From assembly GCA_017392345.1 (NCBI GenBank), contig JAFOVN010000018.1, positions 1 through 35,214 on the forward strand: a stretch of 35,214 nucleotides of DNA. Reading direction: 5' to 3'. The position numbers and the translations under genes were made by a program. Positions 3,918-12,396 of this stretch are shown piece after piece (the stretch's first letter is position 1; each line of letters opens with the position of its first letter). The notes under the pieces were generated by a model. It did no database searches, was not told the DNA's origin, and saw nothing but the letters and a program-made list of their open reading frames with translations. The DNA comes from Alphaproteobacteria bacterium. Lineage in GTDB: Bacteria > Pseudomonadota > Alphaproteobacteria > Rs-D84.

Positions 3918-6146
3918 ATGAAAGGAAAAATACTTTCTTTTGTAATATGCGCGTTATGCGCCATGTCGGCGTTGGCGGCGGTTCGCACCCAAAATTCACC
4001 ATCACGCGTGCAAACAAATGAAACCACCCGGGGTGGTCAAAATGTCGCATCGCGCACCGCAACCATTACACGCGCCGTTTCAAACCGCGCAACGAATGCC
4101 CGAACCGGGGTGGCACGCGTGGGGCGCACCGCAACAAACCCACGGGGCGCAATAACAACCGCGGCGGTTGCGCGCATCACATCGCGCGCCACAACGAACC
4201 GCGGGGCAACCGCACGCGCGACGGCAACGCAAACAATTCCAACAAATACATTTGACGAAAAATATCATAATTGCTATGCGGCGTATTTTTCATGCATGGA
4301 TCAATTTTGTGCAACTGTTGACGACCATTATCGTCGCTGTATATGTTCATCAAAATTAAACACGGTGCAATCGCGCGAAAACGCGCTTAGCCAAACGTCC
4401 ACACAATTGCAAGATTTCAAAGACCTTAATATCGATGCAATTCTAAAAACGCCCGAAGAAGTCAAAGCAATGCTATCGGCAAGTGACGGCGAAAAAAAAC
4501 TTGCCGGCACACACGATAATTCTGCATCGAATAAAAAATTGACCGCCATCGGCGATGTATTAAAAAAGACGAAAACAAATTCACTATCGACCGCGGGCAC
4601 ATTGGATATTGCCGGCAACATAAACCAAATATGGAACACAACCGATATTGTATCCGGCGCAAACATTGCGAACCTTACGGGGGAACCATTATACAACGCC
4701 GTTCATGCCCAGTGCGCCGAATTGGTAATGCCAACATGTTCATCGATGACAACACTAAATATGGTCGCATCGGCGTATGGAATGTATATTGAAAACGATT
4801 GTTCGATATTACTAACCGCGCTTGAAAAACAATCGATAAGTGCAAACGCCGCAATCCGTGAAACGAATCGGGAAATGAATGCGGCGCGACTTCAAAATTA
4901 TGATTCACATAATTCAACCGCGATAAATGAATGCATCGCCGGCGTGCGCGCGGACATAACCGCGGACACGGCATGCGGTGCAAACTATATTCATTGTTTG
5001 GATTTAACCGGCCTTTACATTGAACGCGCAACCGGCAACCCAATATATTCAAAAAATTTCTATAAATTGAATGACCAGATTTCACTGTCGGGCAACATTT
5101 TAACCAACAGCATAAACGCAAAACTTGTGACCGAATTAAATACAAAGCGGAAATTCGCCGAACACACACTTGAAACATGCCGCGACATCGCGGATACGGT
5201 TTGGGACGAATACCTGCGCCAGGCAATAACCGAAATATACCAAGGTCAACAGTCGCGCATTCAACAGGTTAAAAACGAATGTATGGATGTTGTGAATACA
5301 TGCTATGACACGAAAACATCGCAACTTCGTGATTATAGTAATATCGAAGAACAAATGTTGCTTGGTGCGCGTCTTGAATTGTCCGAAGAACAATGTTCGG
5401 AAAAATTGGAAACATGCAGCAATCTTTACGGTGGCGGTCCGAACGGACTTCAACGATTGGTGACGGAAATGCGCAATATCGTAAGCCAAAAGATTTCGCA
5501 AAATTGCCTGGGGACACTAAAAGATTACGCAAAAAAACTGTGCCGCGTTTCAAACAATGACGCAACGCATGAATATCCATACGGTTGCCGTGTTTATACC
5601 CCCGGCGATATCAGTTACGCAAACAACCCCGATTGCAATTATATTCAACCGGGTTCATACACCGGCACACCGATAATACCCGGTTTAGATTCATTAGGCG
5701 ACACCAGTGGTTATATGTGTTGGGAAAACCGCGAATATACAAGTTGCAAATCTGGATTTTATCTTGACCTATATAACGGCAAACATAAATGTATGGTCTG
5801 TCCAAACGACGATGAATGGGTATGCGACGCAAACGGTCCGCACCGTGTTGGTGTTGATTGCGACGATTACGCGGGCAGTTTATATCAAAAAATGGTGAAC
5901 TATGCGATGCAGTATTGTATGCGTCCATCCGACTATGCACAACCCAACGCCGTATTGCCAATATCGGTCTTGGCCGATGTAAACGCAGTTATGGATTCGG
6001 TGCGCGCCGACATGGCAACGGTGCTTGCGCGCGAATGCACCGACATGGGCGGCACATGGACAAACGATACATCCGCACCAAAGTATATGGATTTCTATAA
6101 CCAAACAAATGCAAATGAAAAATGGGGCATTTGTCGCGAACCATAG
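3918..6146 (+). CDS. Secreted cysteine-rich protein P1, founding copy of a three-member family
   Basis: 742 residues; I do not recognise the family. Residues 1-20 are a signal peptide (cut near ALA-AV). Residues 21 to about 113 form a Cys-free, low-complexity segment rich in Arg, Thr and Ala with no Lys. The first conserved module then has the exact signature C-x3-Y-x2-C-M-D-x-F-C-x9-C-x-C-S, shared with the proteins at 16715-19183 and 19183-21396. I count 29 cysteines in the mature chain. The middle has helical stretches such as TLETCRDIADTVWDEYLRQ, which aligns with the VLDQCMAV block of the paralogues. The last 200 residues have a CxxC pair (KCMVCP) and are not shared. The start codon abuts AAAGGG directly, so spacing is unusual; TTGCGG-18-TAGCAT at 3873-3902 is a possible promoter. 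Likely periplasmic or surface exposed, with many disulfides. Confidence 0.8.
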   Translation: MKGKILSFVICALCAMSALAAVRTQNSPSRVQTNETTRGGQNVASRTATITRAVSNRATNARTGVARVGRTATNPRGAITTAAVARITSRATTNRGATARATATQTIPTNTFDEKYHNCYAAYFSCMDQFCATVDDHYRRCICSSKLNTVQSRENALSQTSTQLQDFKDLNIDAILKTPEEVKAMLSASDGEKKLAGTHDNSASNKKLTAIGDVLKKTKTNSLSTAGTLDIAGNINQIWNTTDIVSGANIANLTGEPLYNAVHAQCAELVMPTCSSMTTLNMVASAYGMYIENDCSILLTALEKQSISANAAIRETNREMNAARLQNYDSHNSTAINECIAGVRADITADTACGANYIHCLDLTGLYIERATGNPIYSKNFYKLNDQISLSGNILTNSINAKLVTELNTKRKFAEHTLETCRDIADTVWDEYLRQAITEIYQGQQSRIQQVKNECMDVVNTCYDTKTSQLRDYSNIEEQMLLGARLELSEEQCSEKLETCSNLYGGGPNGLQRLVTEMRNIVSQKISQNCLGTLKDYAKKLCRVSNNDATHEYPYGCRVYTPGDISYANNPDCNYIQPGSYTGTPIIPGLDSLGDTSGYMCWENREYTSCKSGFYLDLYNGKHKCMVCPNDDEWVCDANGPHRVGVDCDDYAGSLYQKMVNYAMQYCMRPSDYAQPNAVLPISVLADVNAVMDSVRADMATVLARECTDMGGTWTNDTSAPKYMDFYNQTNANEKWGICREP

Positions 6147-6151
6147 ATAAC

Positions 6152-6180
6152 TTGCACCGGGCAAAAAAAACTGATATAAT
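6152..6180 (+). promoter_or_regulatory. Strong promoter for the small secreted cysteine protein
   Basis: TTGCAC (6152-6157), a 17-nt spacer and a perfect TATAAT (6175-6180) lie directly after the stop codon of P1, so the downstream gene can be transcribed independently of P1. The start site would fall near 6187, leaving a leader of about 10 nt that holds the purine-rich ribosome site. Confidence 0.7.
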
Positions 6181-6196
6181 ATGGGGGAAAGGAAAA

Positions 6197-6901
6197 ATGA
6201 AAAAGCAATTTGCAATTTTATTCATCGGTTGCACCGCATATGGTGCCGCGTTTGGCGCAACAACTGATTTTTGGTGGATGCACGACACAATCTGCACCAT
6301 CAATGATGCACTTTGCTATACACGGAACACACCCGGCATCGATACAGATTCGGACACCAGTTGGGACACGTCCGGCAATTGTCGCGGACGGAAAATTATA
6401 TGTGCGGCCGCACTTAGTTCGGGTGGCGCGGACGCAATTGCGATGAACCGTGACGACATTGCACGTGGCAACGGAATAAGTTCTGATTTTGACACAAATG
6501 TTTATGTCGCCGCCGAAGATTGCTATGGCGCACGCAAAACATCGCAAAACGGCGCAATGGTTTTAATAAACGGCGAATACGTGCGTGTTTGGTGTAATGG
6601 AATTTTATCGAATCCAACGGAAACGGTCGCAAATGGCGAAATTGGTCTTGCGCCAACATGTCGCGAATTGGCCGAAATGAACTATGTCGCGACACTAAAC
6701 GGTAATTGTTATGGAAAAAGATATGACCCATCAAAATATAGTATCGATTGCGACGGCGAAAATCCGGTAATCATTGTCCTTAATGGTGCGCAGTATAATC
6801 CGGATATAAACAACTTTATTACACCATTTGTGTTGAATGCGCGATTTGGCGCGATGCAAACATCCGCCGCAACCCAGCGTTCGATCCATTTCCCGAAATA
6901 G
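6197..6901 (+). CDS. Small secreted cysteine-containing protein of unknown function
   Basis: 234 residues from the ATG at 6197, which follows GGGGAAAGGAAAA; an upstream in-frame ATG at 6122 lies inside P1 and is rejected. Residues 1-20 are a signal peptide (MKKQFAILFIGCTAYGAAFG, then ATTDFWW). The mature part has nine cysteines and is rich in Asn, Asp, Gly and Tyr, with three similar C-Y-G or C-R-x segments (EDCYGARKT, GNCYGKRYD, GNCRGRKIIC) that suggest repeated small folds. It has its own strong promoter. The final 60 nt, including the stop codon, are duplicated at 7490-7549. Function unknown; probably envelope or extracellular, and possibly linked to P1 by position. Confidence 0.75.
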   Translation: MKKQFAILFIGCTAYGAAFGATTDFWWMHDTICTINDALCYTRNTPGIDTDSDTSWDTSGNCRGRKIICAAALSSGGADAIAMNRDDIARGNGISSDFDTNVYVAAEDCYGARKTSQNGAMVLINGEYVRVWCNGILSNPTETVANGEIGLAPTCRELAEMNYVATLNGNCYGKRYDPSKYSIDCDGENPVIIVLNGAQYNPDINNFITPFVLNARFGAMQTSAATQRSIHFPK

Positions 6902-8164: not shown

Positions 8165-8824
8165 TTATACATTATTTTTGAACCCAAGTCCAACAATAAA
8201 CATTTCAACAGAATCCTTGCGCGATGCCGCCGGTTTCACATGATGCACCGATTCGAATTTCTGTTTTATTTGTTTCAATAACTCATTCGTTGTTCCACCC
8301 GTAAAAGATTTTGCAACAAATGTCCCACCGGGCCGCAACGCACGGCACGCAAAATCGAACGCATATTCCAACAACACCATTTGACGCAGGTGATCAGTCT
8401 TTTGATGTCCAACGGTATTCGGTGCCATGTCCGACACAACAACATCAACAACACCGTTTGCATTATCATCCAATTTTAATTTTTCTTCTAACCACCGCAG
8501 CGCCGCATCTGTTGTAAAATCACCCTGATAAAATTCAACATTGTTGATTGGTGTTATTTCCAGCAAATCCATCGCAAAGATTTTTGTCTTTGGAAAAGTC
8601 CGCGCAATAAATTGCGACCATGATCCCGGTGCCGCACCCAAATCCACAACCGTTTGTCCGTTTTTCAAAAATTTATATTTTTCATTTATTTCGATAAGTT
8701 TATACGCCGCCCGCGCCCGATAACCATCACGCCGCGCCCGTGCAACATAGGGGTCGGCGGCCTGGCGCGTTAACCACGCCACCGAAGATTTATGTTTCGC
8801 AATTTTATTATTTGTTATTTTCAT
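8165..8824 (-). CDS. rlmE: 23S rRNA 2'-O-ribose methyltransferase RlmE (FtsJ)
   Basis: 219 residues. RlmE methylates U2552 (E. coli numbering) in the 23S rRNA A-loop using S-adenosylmethionine, a late step in 50S assembly. The SAM motif is VDLGAAPGSWSQ at 60-71. The catalytic K-D-K-E tetrad is visible: K42 (RAAYKL), D132 (SDMAPN), K172 (VAKSF) and E207 (SVEMF). Length and domain order are normal. It begins 17 nt inside the preceding 69-residue orphan gene and follows the SRP M-domain gene, a grouping around ribosome-related functions. Confidence 0.95.
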   Translation of the reverse strand: MKITNNKIAKHKSSVAWLTRQAADPYVARARRDGYRARAAYKLIEINEKYKFLKNGQTVVDLGAAPGSWSQFIARTFPKTKIFAMDLLEITPINNVEFYQGDFTTDAALRWLEEKLKLDDNANGVVDVVVSDMAPNTVGHQKTDHLRQMVLLEYAFDFACRALRPGGTFVAKSFTGGTTNELLKQIKQKFESVHHVKPAASRKDSVEMFIVGLGFKNNV

Positions 8825-9017
8825 TTTGTTTTAATACCAACCGTTGTTGGAATCTGCATAATTTTTGATACCCGCGTGAAAGAAGAGTATTCTTAAAATA
8901 ACGCAATTCTGTTTGATTCTCATTAACATTATATGCAAGACGCCAATACAAAAATCGACCTTTATTATCATATATCGGTTTACTTCTTGGTTGACCAATA
9001 ACATAAATCTTTCCCAT
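8808..9017 (-). CDS. Small hypothetical protein between the SRP M-domain gene and rlmE
   Basis: 69 residues from the ATG at 9017; a GTG nine nt upstream is possible, but the AAGGTGG ribosome site fits the ATG better. The sequence is basic and aromatic (GKIYVIGQPRSKPIYDNKG, LYWRLAYNVNENQTELRYF), with no signal peptide or membrane segment and no domain I recognise. The start lies 12 nt after the M-domain gene and the end overlaps rlmE by 17 nt, so it looks like a real member of a three-gene operon. A role in RNA or ribosome handling would be a guess from context only. Confidence 0.55.
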   Translation of the reverse strand: MGKIYVIGQPRSKPIYDNKGRFLYWRLAYNVNENQTELRYFKNTLLSRGYQKLCRFQQRLVLKQNENNK

Positions 9018-9029
9018 CGCCACCACCTT

Positions 9030-9512
9030 TTACTTCGCGCCTGGTTCGCCGCCGCCCTGTTTCATGCGTTCCATAACGGCCTCCATACCGCCCATGCGCT
9101 GAATCATGGCCATTTGCTGTTTCATTTTTGTATATTGTTTTATAATATGTTCCACATCGCGCACCGTCACGCCCGCGGTTTCCGCAATACGCGCCTTGGC
9201 ATTGGCAAAGATTTTTTCCGGATCCGCACGTTCGGCGGCGGTCATCGCCTCTAATATCTTAATTTGCGAATCAACACTGCCGTCCTTAATTTTTTCTTTG
9301 ATTGCCGACACCGCATTCGACATACCAGGCACCATTTTAAGCAATCCACTAAAATTACTCATTTTCTTAATCTGTTTCAATTGCGCCAACATATCGTTCA
9401 TATCGAACACGCCCGCCATCATACGTTCGGCGGTTTCCTTCATGCCCTTTGGCACATGTGGTTCTTCCAAATTTACATTTTCTTCTTTTTTCTTTTTGCC
9501 AAATCCAAACAT
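9030..9512 (-). CDS. Stand-alone SRP54/Ffh M-domain protein
   Basis: 160 residues with its own AGGAG ribosome site seven nt before the ATG, so it is not the tail of a longer gene; uvrA lies directly upstream. The protein matches the methionine-rich M domain of Ffh: FDMNDMLAQLKQIKKM (36-51, helix M1), the finger loop with MVPGM (60-64), LEAMTAAERADPEKI (87-101), and the final helices VRDVEHIIKQYTKMKQQM with Met-rich tail. The N and G (GTPase) domains are absent. The SRP RNA-binding motif, usually GSRxxRIAxGSG, reads ANAKARIAETAG at 103-114, so key Arg, Ser and Gly residues are missing. A full ffh probably exists elsewhere. It may bind hydrophobic signal sequences without SRP RNA. N-terminal KKKKEE tail. 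Confidence 0.85.
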   Translation of the reverse strand: MFGFGKKKKEENVNLEEPHVPKGMKETAERMMAGVFDMNDMLAQLKQIKKMSNFSGLLKMVPGMSNAVSAIKEKIKDGSVDSQIKILEAMTAAERADPEKIFANAKARIAETAGVTVRDVEHIIKQYTKMKQQMAMIQRMGGMEAVMERMKQGGGEPGAK

Positions 9513-9552: not shown

Positions 9553-12396
9553 CTATTTGTCCAGATACTTTGCCAAATATTTTCCTGTGAGTGATTCCGG
9601 ATTACGCGCCACATCTTCGGGTGTCCCCGTTGCGATCACGCGACCACCACCCGCGCCCCCCACCGGCCCCAGGTCGATAATCCAATCCGCGGTTTTAATA
9701 ACTTCCAAATTATGTTCAATAACAATTACGGTGTTGCCCTGCTCTACAAATTCATGCAGAACGCCAAGCAACTGTTTAATATCTTCAAAATGCAGTCCCG
9801 TTGTCGGTTCGTCCAAGATATAAAGCGTCTGGCCCGTGCCACGCGCCGATAATTCTTTGGATAGTTTTATACGCTGGGCTTCGCCCCCCGAAAGGTCAAG
9901 TGAACTTTGTCCCAATTTTATATAATCCAAACCAACGCGTTTTAACAATTCCAACTTGCGACTAATCTGTGGATGATTGATAAAGAACCGATATGCTTCG
10001 TCCACGGTCATATCCAACACGTCCGCAATTGATTTTCCCTTGTATTTTACCGCCAATGTTTCTTCGTTATATCGCGTGCCGTGGCATTTGTCGCATTCGA
10101 CATAAACATCCGCCAAGAAATTCATTTCAATTTTTATCTGGCCGTCACCCTGACATGCCTCGCACCGGCCACCTTTTACATTAAACGAAAACCGCCCTGG
10201 GCCGTATCCACGTGCCTTGGCCTCTGGCAATTCGGCAAAGAAATCACGGATATTCGAAAACACACCGGTATATGTTGCGGGGTTGCTGCGCGGGCTGCGC
10301 CCGATGGGTGATTGATCAATATCCACAACCTTGTCTATATTTTCCATACCGCGAATAATATCATGCGCCCCGGATTCAATTTTTGACCCATACAGCGCGC
10401 GCATCAATGCCGGATACAACGTATTCAACAACAATGTGGACTTTCCCGAACCCGACACACCCGTCAACGCAATAAATTTGCCAAGCGGAAATTCAACATC
10501 GATATTTTTCAAATTATTTTCCCGCGCACCACATATGGTAATTTTTTGTCCATTGCCGGCACGCCGTTTTTTCGGCACAGGAATTTTTTTTGCACCCGAC
10601 AAATACTGACCCGTAAGGGAATTTTTATTTTTTATAACCTGCCCTGGTGTGCCGGCGGCAATAACATTTCCACCGTTCACACCCGCGCCACGACCAATAT
10701 CAATAAGGTAATCCGCCGCCCGCATTGCATCTTCGTCATGTTCAACGACAATCACACTGTTGTCTTTATCGCGCAGCATTTTTAGTGTTTCAAGCAATTT
10801 GTCATTATCACTTTGATGCAACCCGATCGACGGTTCATCCAAAACATACAGAACGCCCGACAGGCCACTGCCAATCTGTGACGCAAGGCGGATACGTTGC
10901 GCTTCGCCCCCGGAAAGTGTTCCCGCCATCCGCGACATTGTTAAATACCCAAGTCCAACATTTTTAAGGAAAAACAAACGACTTGTTATTTCACGCAGAA
11001 CCATTTTTGCGATATCGTTTTCTTGTTTGCTTAGATGATTCGGCAAATCCATAAACCACACATAAGAATCATCAATTGACATATCACAAACATCAATAAT
11101 ATCCGCGCCATTTATTTTTATGCAAAGTGCCTGAACATTAAGACGTTTTCCATGACACACCGGGCACGGTTTTTCCGATTGATACTTTGCCAATTCCGCC
11201 CGCATTACATCGGATTCAGATTCACGCCACCGCCGTTCAATGTTTGGTATCACCCCTTCGAACGGTTTTTCATAAACGAACCCGTTCCAATTTATCTTTA
11301 TCGGTGTATCACCCGTACCGTATAAAATAATGTTTTTGTGTTCCGCACTAAGCATATGCCACGGTTTCCCAAGTGGAATTTTATATTGTCGGTGCAACGC
11401 ATTTATCAAGTGTTCAAATTGCGACAACATTCCACCCCGCGACCACGGCGCAATCGCCCCGTCCAAAATCGACTTTGACGGGTCGGGAATAACCAAATCA
11501 GGCGACATATTTAACTGCACACCCAAACCATCGCACGCACTGCACGCACCAATCGGCGCATTAAAAGAAAACAACCGCGGTTCAATTTTCGGTACGGCAA
11601 AACCACTAACTGGGCACGCATAATTTTGTGAATAAAGAACATCTTCGTTCGTATCCAACCGCCGCAAAATCACCGACCCCGGCACCAGGCGCAACGACCC
11701 TTCGAACGAAGAATAAATCCGCGAACGAAATTCTTCGCGTTCAGAATCCGTCGCATCCGCCGCCGGCATTTGAATCCGATCAACAATAACAAAAATGTCA
11801 TGCTTTTTATTCTTATCAAGTGGCGGCACCGCCGTCAAATCATAAAGTTCACCGTCAATAATTACACGCTGATACCCCTGCTTTACCAAAAACGCAATTT
11901 CTTTTTTATATTCGCCCTTGCGCGACCGAACCAGTGGTGCCATAATAAACGCGCGCGTCCCGGCGGGGATATCCATTGTCATATCAACCATTTCCGCAAT
12001 CGTTTGTGATTTTATGGGAAGTCCAGTCACCGGCGAATATGGCACACCGATTCGCGCCCATAAAAGTCGCAGGTAATCGTATATTTCCGTCACCGTTCCA
12101 ACGGTCGAACGCGGATTTTTTGACGTAGTTTTTTGTTCAATCGATATCGCCGGTGCCAAACCTTCAATCAAATCAACATCGGGCTTTTTCTGCATATCCA
12201 AAAATTGCCGCGCATAACTGGACAGCGATTCGACATACCGCCGCTGACCTTCGGCATAAATTGTATTAAACGCAAGTGACGATTTTCCCGACCCGGATAC
12301 ACCGGTCACGACCACCAATTTATTCTTTGGTATGTCTAAATCGATATTTTTAAGATTATTTTCGCGTGCACCGCGAATTTTTATAACGCCACTCAT
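9553..12396 (-). CDS. uvrA: Excinuclease ABC subunit A (UvrA)
   Basis: 947 residues, the usual length. UvrA is the damage-sensing ATPase of nucleotide excision repair; it loads UvrB on lesions. Two ABC modules are present: Walker [11 protein letters not shown] near residue 32 and [10 protein letters not shown] near 640, with signatures [14 protein letters not shown] and [15 protein letters not shown] and Walker [10 protein letters not shown] and LDEPTTGLH. The interaction and zinc regions include [16 protein letters not shown] and CEACQGDGQ...CDKCHGTR. The first zinc knuckle has CPVS instead of CPxC, so it lacks one ligand; I recall this from other alphaproteobacterial UvrA proteins. Promoter spacing predicts a leaderless message. 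Confidence 0.97.

Follow-up and report, generated by a model that had tools for sequence, protein, structure and literature searches.

The gene examined here lies in a window of 35,214 nucleotides (the whole stretch of DNA that was analysed), which was assigned to Candidatus Enterousia (Alphaproteobacteria, Rs-D84). It occupies positions 9512..9030 on the minus strand, starts with ATG and comprises 160 codons, and a Shine-Dalgarno sequence, AGGAG (9523-9519, minus strand), is located 6 nt 5′ of the start codon. The gene order at the locus is uvrA (9553..12396), the 160-codon gene, an ORF of 72 residues (8808..9026) and rlmE (8165..8824), all on the minus strand, with 40 bases between the uvrA stop and the start of the 160-codon gene. 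While uvrA and rlmE, the latter encoding the 23S rRNA 2′-O-methyltransferase (PF01728, 196 bits), are the upstream and downstream synteny markers of the ffh locus, the 72-residue product has no Pfam or NCBIfam match, and its ORF is present in about 11 of 80 relative loci.

PF02978 (SRP_SPB), at 80.5 bits and profile positions 2-91 of 91, was the sole Pfam domain above its cut-off, 27 bits, in the 160-residue protein; matches to BORCS7, DUF3418 and FRB were all sub-threshold. The Ffh model TIGR00959 was matched over its last 115 positions only (313-427 of 428), and thus the NG domain is absent from the protein, in which PF00448, the SRP-type NG GTPase domain, was likewise missing. A short N-terminal stub, MFGFGKKKK (9486..9512, minus strand), stands in place of the roughly 300-residue NG domain. 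These results bear out the first-pass annotation, made from the sequence alone, in which a stand-alone SRP M-domain gene with its own ribosome site was described two genes before rlmE; we refer to it as the M-only gene.

Close homologues of the M-only protein occur in metagenome-assembled genomes (MAGs) of rumen and gut origin, some of them belonging to named Ca. Enterousia species. The PF02978 domain was present in all 79 aligned relatives, many alignment columns were invariant, and the median dN/dS was about 0.07 over 142 pairs, showing that purifying selection on the gene is strong. Residues M1, F2, G3, F4, G5 and K7 of the stub are invariant in the 79 sequences, and its aromatic-basic character recurs across genera (MFGFGKKK in the genus; MSWFSKKKK, MAWFGRSKK and MAFLGFGKKK in others). 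A role of MFGFGKKK as a membrane tag would be speculation, and we do not claim that it derives from FtsY, as the FtsY proteins of sister genera start with MGIFSK or MGFFSK and are alike only in being aromatic plus basic.

The segment corresponding to the SRP-RNA-binding motif reads FANAKARIAETAG (residues 102-114; 9171..9209, minus strand), where the Ffh proteins of related genera have [SA]RKxRIAxG[SA]G. Within the genus the motif is FANAK[AT]RIAETAG, with FANAK fixed in 79 of 79 sequences and the first G replaced by T, S, A, K, N or Q, and it departs from the RxxRIAxG[SA]G required of Ffh. When the proteins were aligned to E. coli Ffh, Ser397, Arg398 and Gly405, which we take to be RNA contacts in the E. 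coli complex, were found to be altered; one genome (G005, g6) differs in that Arg is retained at 398 and Arg401 is lost. Given this degeneration, already noticed in the first-pass annotation, SRP-RNA binding should be lost, and the parallel that it had drawn with chloroplast SRP54 holds to that extent: in higher plants, the M domain of cpSRP54 works without SRP RNA.

Because the former RNA patch was fixed to a new sequence and has not just decayed, selection may act there, and one could suppose that the protein has retained its fold for a job other than targeting, for example with the FANAK patch binding a new partner. We regard such a change of function as improbable, since the finger-loop/groove region, on which signal binding depends, ranks with the best conserved parts of the protein, and since the gene has stayed at the ffh locus and is carried by nearly all members of a clade that has kept Sec. 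The finger-loop region, which closes the signal-sequence groove, has the very well conserved pattern FDxNDMLAQLKQIKKMSxxSGLLKMVPGM; in the window it forms part of the start of the M domain, FDMNDMLAQLKQIKKMSNFSGLLKMVPGM (residues 36-64; 9321..9407, minus strand). At the other end of the protein, a Met-rich helix is predicted at residues 143-153, after MGGM (9054..9086, minus strand).

An AlphaFold2 model of the M-only protein, built with 79 sequences, had a mean pLDDT of 72, with values around 90 or higher in the core (residues 81-130) and low values in the stub, which is therefore probably flexible. Using VIA-align, the predicted fold was overlaid on SRP M domains, a check proposed at the outset, and it agreed well with signal-bound SRP54 M domains (4xco, Z 12.7; 3ndb, Z 12.3) and with E. 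coli 1hq1 (Z 10.6, rmsd 1.7, 76 aligned). Mitochondrial proteins scored lower than true Ffh M domains, with Z 8.8 (rmsd 3.5, 112 aligned) for Tetrahymena mL105 (6z1p_AT) and Z 8.9 for the Toxoplasma mitoribosome (9i05_AI), and a profile of the M-only family matched 6z1p_AT at a modest E value of 2.3e-5. As the mL105 fold match lies under the level that helical folds can reach by chance, the likeness to mL105 rests on shared M-domain homology.

Ca. Enterousia belongs to the order Rs-D84 of Alphaproteobacteria and its genomes are mostly below 1 Mb (PMC12306168), according to a paper in which SRP, Ffh, FtsY and signal recognition are not mentioned. All genomes studied here appear to be MAGs. The window genome (677 kb, 76% complete) contains a single M domain, and the search for a full-length ffh and ftsY that the first-pass annotation had proposed came back empty, with no SRP GTPase in this genome and none in the M-only clade. 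Among 142 genomes of the family, an M domain was found in 137, in 17 of them within an Ffh frame together with an NG domain and in 120 as a stand-alone frame (164-273 aa, measured from stop to stop). These 120 genomes carry the M-only gene without an Ffh or FtsY GTPase domain, showing that the M-only form is conserved in relatives. PF00448 was detected at 138-232 bits (best per genome) in 18 of the 142, all from g2, g4, g5, g9, g10 and g11, and these 18 keep Ffh and/or FtsY; in the remaining family genomes nothing exceeded 23.1 bits. We rejected the matches of 17-23 bits in M-only genomes as SRP GTPases and ascribed them to another GTPase: the one inspected (G010, L273:12958-14382) starts like Der/EngA, GRPNTGKSTLFNAL, a motif-based assignment of a single match. 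Two Enterousia genomes gave no M match, and missing sequence explains both, as G010 is also without rlmE and the contig of G137 stops just upstream of rlmE.

For the 4.5S RNA, Rfam RF00169 alone proved too insensitive in the Rs-D84 family. With strict filters even SRP-bearing relatives were missed, with lax filters matches were obtained in 8 of 17 SRP-bearing relatives, and the match in G001 was in a different place from the true RNA. A family-specific covariance model was therefore built from seven RNAs of the family itself, in which 7 of 20 pairs had changed on both sides. Scores of 56-91 bits were obtained with this model in 17 of the 18 SRP-bearing genomes, and it had no match in the 124 other family genomes. 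The patterns of the GTPase domain and of the 4.5S model across the 142 genomes indicated that the losses of the NG domain, FtsY and 4.5S RNA coincide. The main finding goes beyond the first-pass annotation: an entire clade no longer has an SRP.

The family includes a genome, G036, that consists of one contig of 1,001,484 bases with 45 tRNAs. E. coli queries for SecA, SecY, SecE, SecG, SecD, SecF, YajC, YidC and SecB were all matched in it, as were those for trigger factor, LepB and FtsH, and the Sec machinery other than SRP is intact. The E. coli FtsY query found no match in G036, and the Ffh query matched the M-only ORF alone. In many SRP-bearing genomes ftsY is flanked by pgk and clpP-clpX; in G036, rnhB-pgk (both identified from their sequence starts) and clpPX are kept within 10 kb, and ftsY is absent there. 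Similarly, a methyltransferase-like gene and a promoter-like TTGACT come immediately before the 4.5S gene in several SRP-bearing genomes, whereas in G036 the methyltransferase-like gene is followed immediately by another ORF and the 4.5S gene is absent at this site. No convincing 4.5S RNA was found in this single-contig genome; an 18-bit match (R1, L134:17740-17771) covered 32 bases without the SRP core and was attributed to chance. A small lipoprotein-like ORF of G036 (902058-902429) gave 61 bits to E. coli trigger factor, and its product is apparently an exported FKBP-type domain.

The incompleteness of the window genome could mean that ffh is simply split or incompletely assembled, with the NG half and FtsY located elsewhere or absent from the assemblies. 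The lone M domain of that genome accords with the split ffh that the first-pass annotation had named as a possible refutation, but no NG-only gene was found anywhere in the genomes searched, which excludes a split gene. Moreover, the same result was obtained in 120 genomes including the single contig, the M-only gene directly follows uvrA, the ftsY and 4.5S sites are empty although their neighbours are present, and the two genomes lacking an M match are accounted for by missing sequence; a split or unassembled ffh is therefore extremely unlikely. Equally remote is a regulator or accessory of a normal SRP, in favour of which there is nothing beyond the M domain itself, as the sampled genomes have no SRP. 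Of the two roles suggested in the first-pass annotation, signal-sequence holdase and SRP regulator, a signal-sequence-binding role stays plausible, while a regulator does not suit a clade without the Ffh NG domain, FtsY and 4.5S RNA.

SRP-bearing loci (L264-L270) and M-only loci (L257-L263 and nearly all of L043-L122) share the order rodZ-uvrA-[ffh or M-only]-rlmE, which indicates that the M-only gene arose from ffh by truncation in place. In a YidC tree the M-only genera were grouped (91/86) and G005 (g6) was unplaced; one SRP loss is thus the simplest reading, and two losses are the alternative. In G017 (g5; L269:5095-6489), ffh is full-length but carries a single in-frame TAG, located between E. 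coli positions 144 and 148; this reflects either an error in sequencing, a gene that is broken or an intermediate on the way to loss.

Outside the family, SRP GTPases were retained in every one of 24 other alphaproteobacteria that have an M domain; most of these have small genomes, and one is a member of the same order. Hence SRP loss does not generally go with genome reduction. Six further Alphaproteobacteria (G158, G289, G190, G195, G215 and G270), several of which are >90% complete, yielded no M domain and no convincing SRP GTPase; gaps, masked sequence or independent SRP losses could account for them.

SRP is commonly regarded as conserved throughout life. A search of the open-access literature turned up no earlier account of a bacterium that is M-only and SRP-less, although an unlisted one is possible. 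Relative to Ffh/SRP54 (TIGR00959, PF02978), the M-only protein has a homologous M domain at an orthologous uvrA-ffh-rlmE locus, but it has neither N nor G domain, its RNA motif is altered and its genome is without FtsY and 4.5S RNA. cpSRP54 differs in retaining the NG domain, using cpFtsY and binding cpSRP43, whereas the NG domain and FtsY were not found in the M-only clade. Streptococcus mutans likewise lives without a working SRP in reliance on YidC, surviving SRP deletion (PMC8546722); it possesses SRP genes and two YidCs, while in the M-only clade the genes were lost by evolution, a single short-tailed YidC is present and the M domain is retained.

The closest known thing to the Enterousia protein is MAP67/mL105. 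MAP67 is a stand-alone M domain of mitochondria that is reported to be essential in apicomplexans (PMC8321541), and SRP RNA has been lost in some plants and algae (PMC8321541). mL105 is located at the mitoribosome tunnel exit, where its C-terminal helix touches uL23 and enters the ribosome tunnel (PMC7326499), and it adjoins density assigned to the OXA1L insertase (PMC9576764). Both MAP67/mL105 and the M-only protein are stand-alone Ffh M domains of the same fold from which the NG domain is absent, and both work in a setting without SRP RNA, the mitochondrion being itself alphaproteobacterial-derived. They differ in that MAP67/mL105 is nuclear-encoded, mitochondrial and very divergent in sequence, in some cases with SecA-like C-terminal pieces, whereas the M-only gene is bacterial and chromosomal, lies in an operon-like, ffh-syntenic locus and is not nuclear-encoded with a presequence; furthermore, most mitochondria are without SecYEG, and the M-only protein occurs beside a full Sec system. 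The two likely arose independently.

On these grounds, we consider it probable that the M-only protein is the product of an ffh truncated in place and kept as a GTP- and RNA-free binder of signal sequences or transmembrane segments, most likely at the ribosome exit tunnel, feeding SecYEG/YidC. The ancestor of Ca. Enterousia and its sister genera would have lost the Ffh NG domain, its receptor FtsY and 4.5S RNA, after which ffh would have been reduced in place to the M domain and maintained by selection. By analogy with the Ffh M domain and mitochondrial mL105, we infer that the protein would sit at the exit tunnel and scan emerging chains, its Met-rich groove holding hydrophobic segments without GTP or RNA and handing them over to SecYEG/YidC. 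Whether a lone M domain, free of GTPase and RNA and docked at the ribosome exit, thereby replaces the SRP cycle, independently repeating the mitochondrial mL105/MAP67 change, we judge to be evenly poised.

The tunnel-exit proteins uL22, uL23, uL24 and uL29 of M-only genera did not differ in any obvious way from those of SRP-bearing genera, and nothing therefore points to new docking surfaces as in mitoribosomes. (uL22, at L276-L295, has a Lys-rich C-terminal tail of about 10-35 residues in the genera examined that E. coli is without.) Compensation by an Oxa1-like tail of YidC was rejected, the tails being equally short in M-only and SRP-bearing groups; as it is not lengthened, YidC does not account for how the ribosome would reach the membrane without FtsY. 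The unaltered exit proteins, the presence of SecA, SecB and YidC in G036, the disappearance of the motif by which Ffh holds 4.5S RNA and the precedent of chloroplast SRP54, with its RNA-free post-translational work, would also suit a soluble post-translational holdase, an undocked M domain that would bind signal sequences or transmembrane segments in the cytosol, with SecA/SecB or YidC as the recipients. This is a possible but clearly less likely reading, because the nearest stand-alone analogue, mL105, is ribosome-bound (PMC7326499) and because the M-only protein keeps the conserved C-terminal helix, the counterpart of the tunnel-reaching part of mL105. In the window itself, two plus-strand proteins (3918-6146 and 6122-6901) have signal-peptide-like N-termini, e.g., MKGKILSFVICALCAMSALA, which suggests that clients of Sec export persist in a bacterium without SRP.

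With Ffh GTPase, FtsY and 4.5S RNA lost together in more than a hundred bacterial species and the M domain kept under strong selection, the clade is a natural experiment separating the functions of SRP, and the unexplained mL105/MAP67 of mitochondria gains a counterpart among bacteria in the M-only protein. Two questions can thereby be put to the test: which part of co-translational targeting cells that have Sec and YidC really require, and how SRP loss was possible in mitochondria. If replacement by a lone M domain is true, signal recognition, and not GTP-controlled delivery, would be the indispensable part of SRP.

In addition, tblastn matches to Ffh M-domain sequence were obtained in MT836701.1 and other unannotated 'phage' records. 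They look like ordinary Ffh on unannotated fragments, and the M-domain sequence in these records is probably bacterial contamination.
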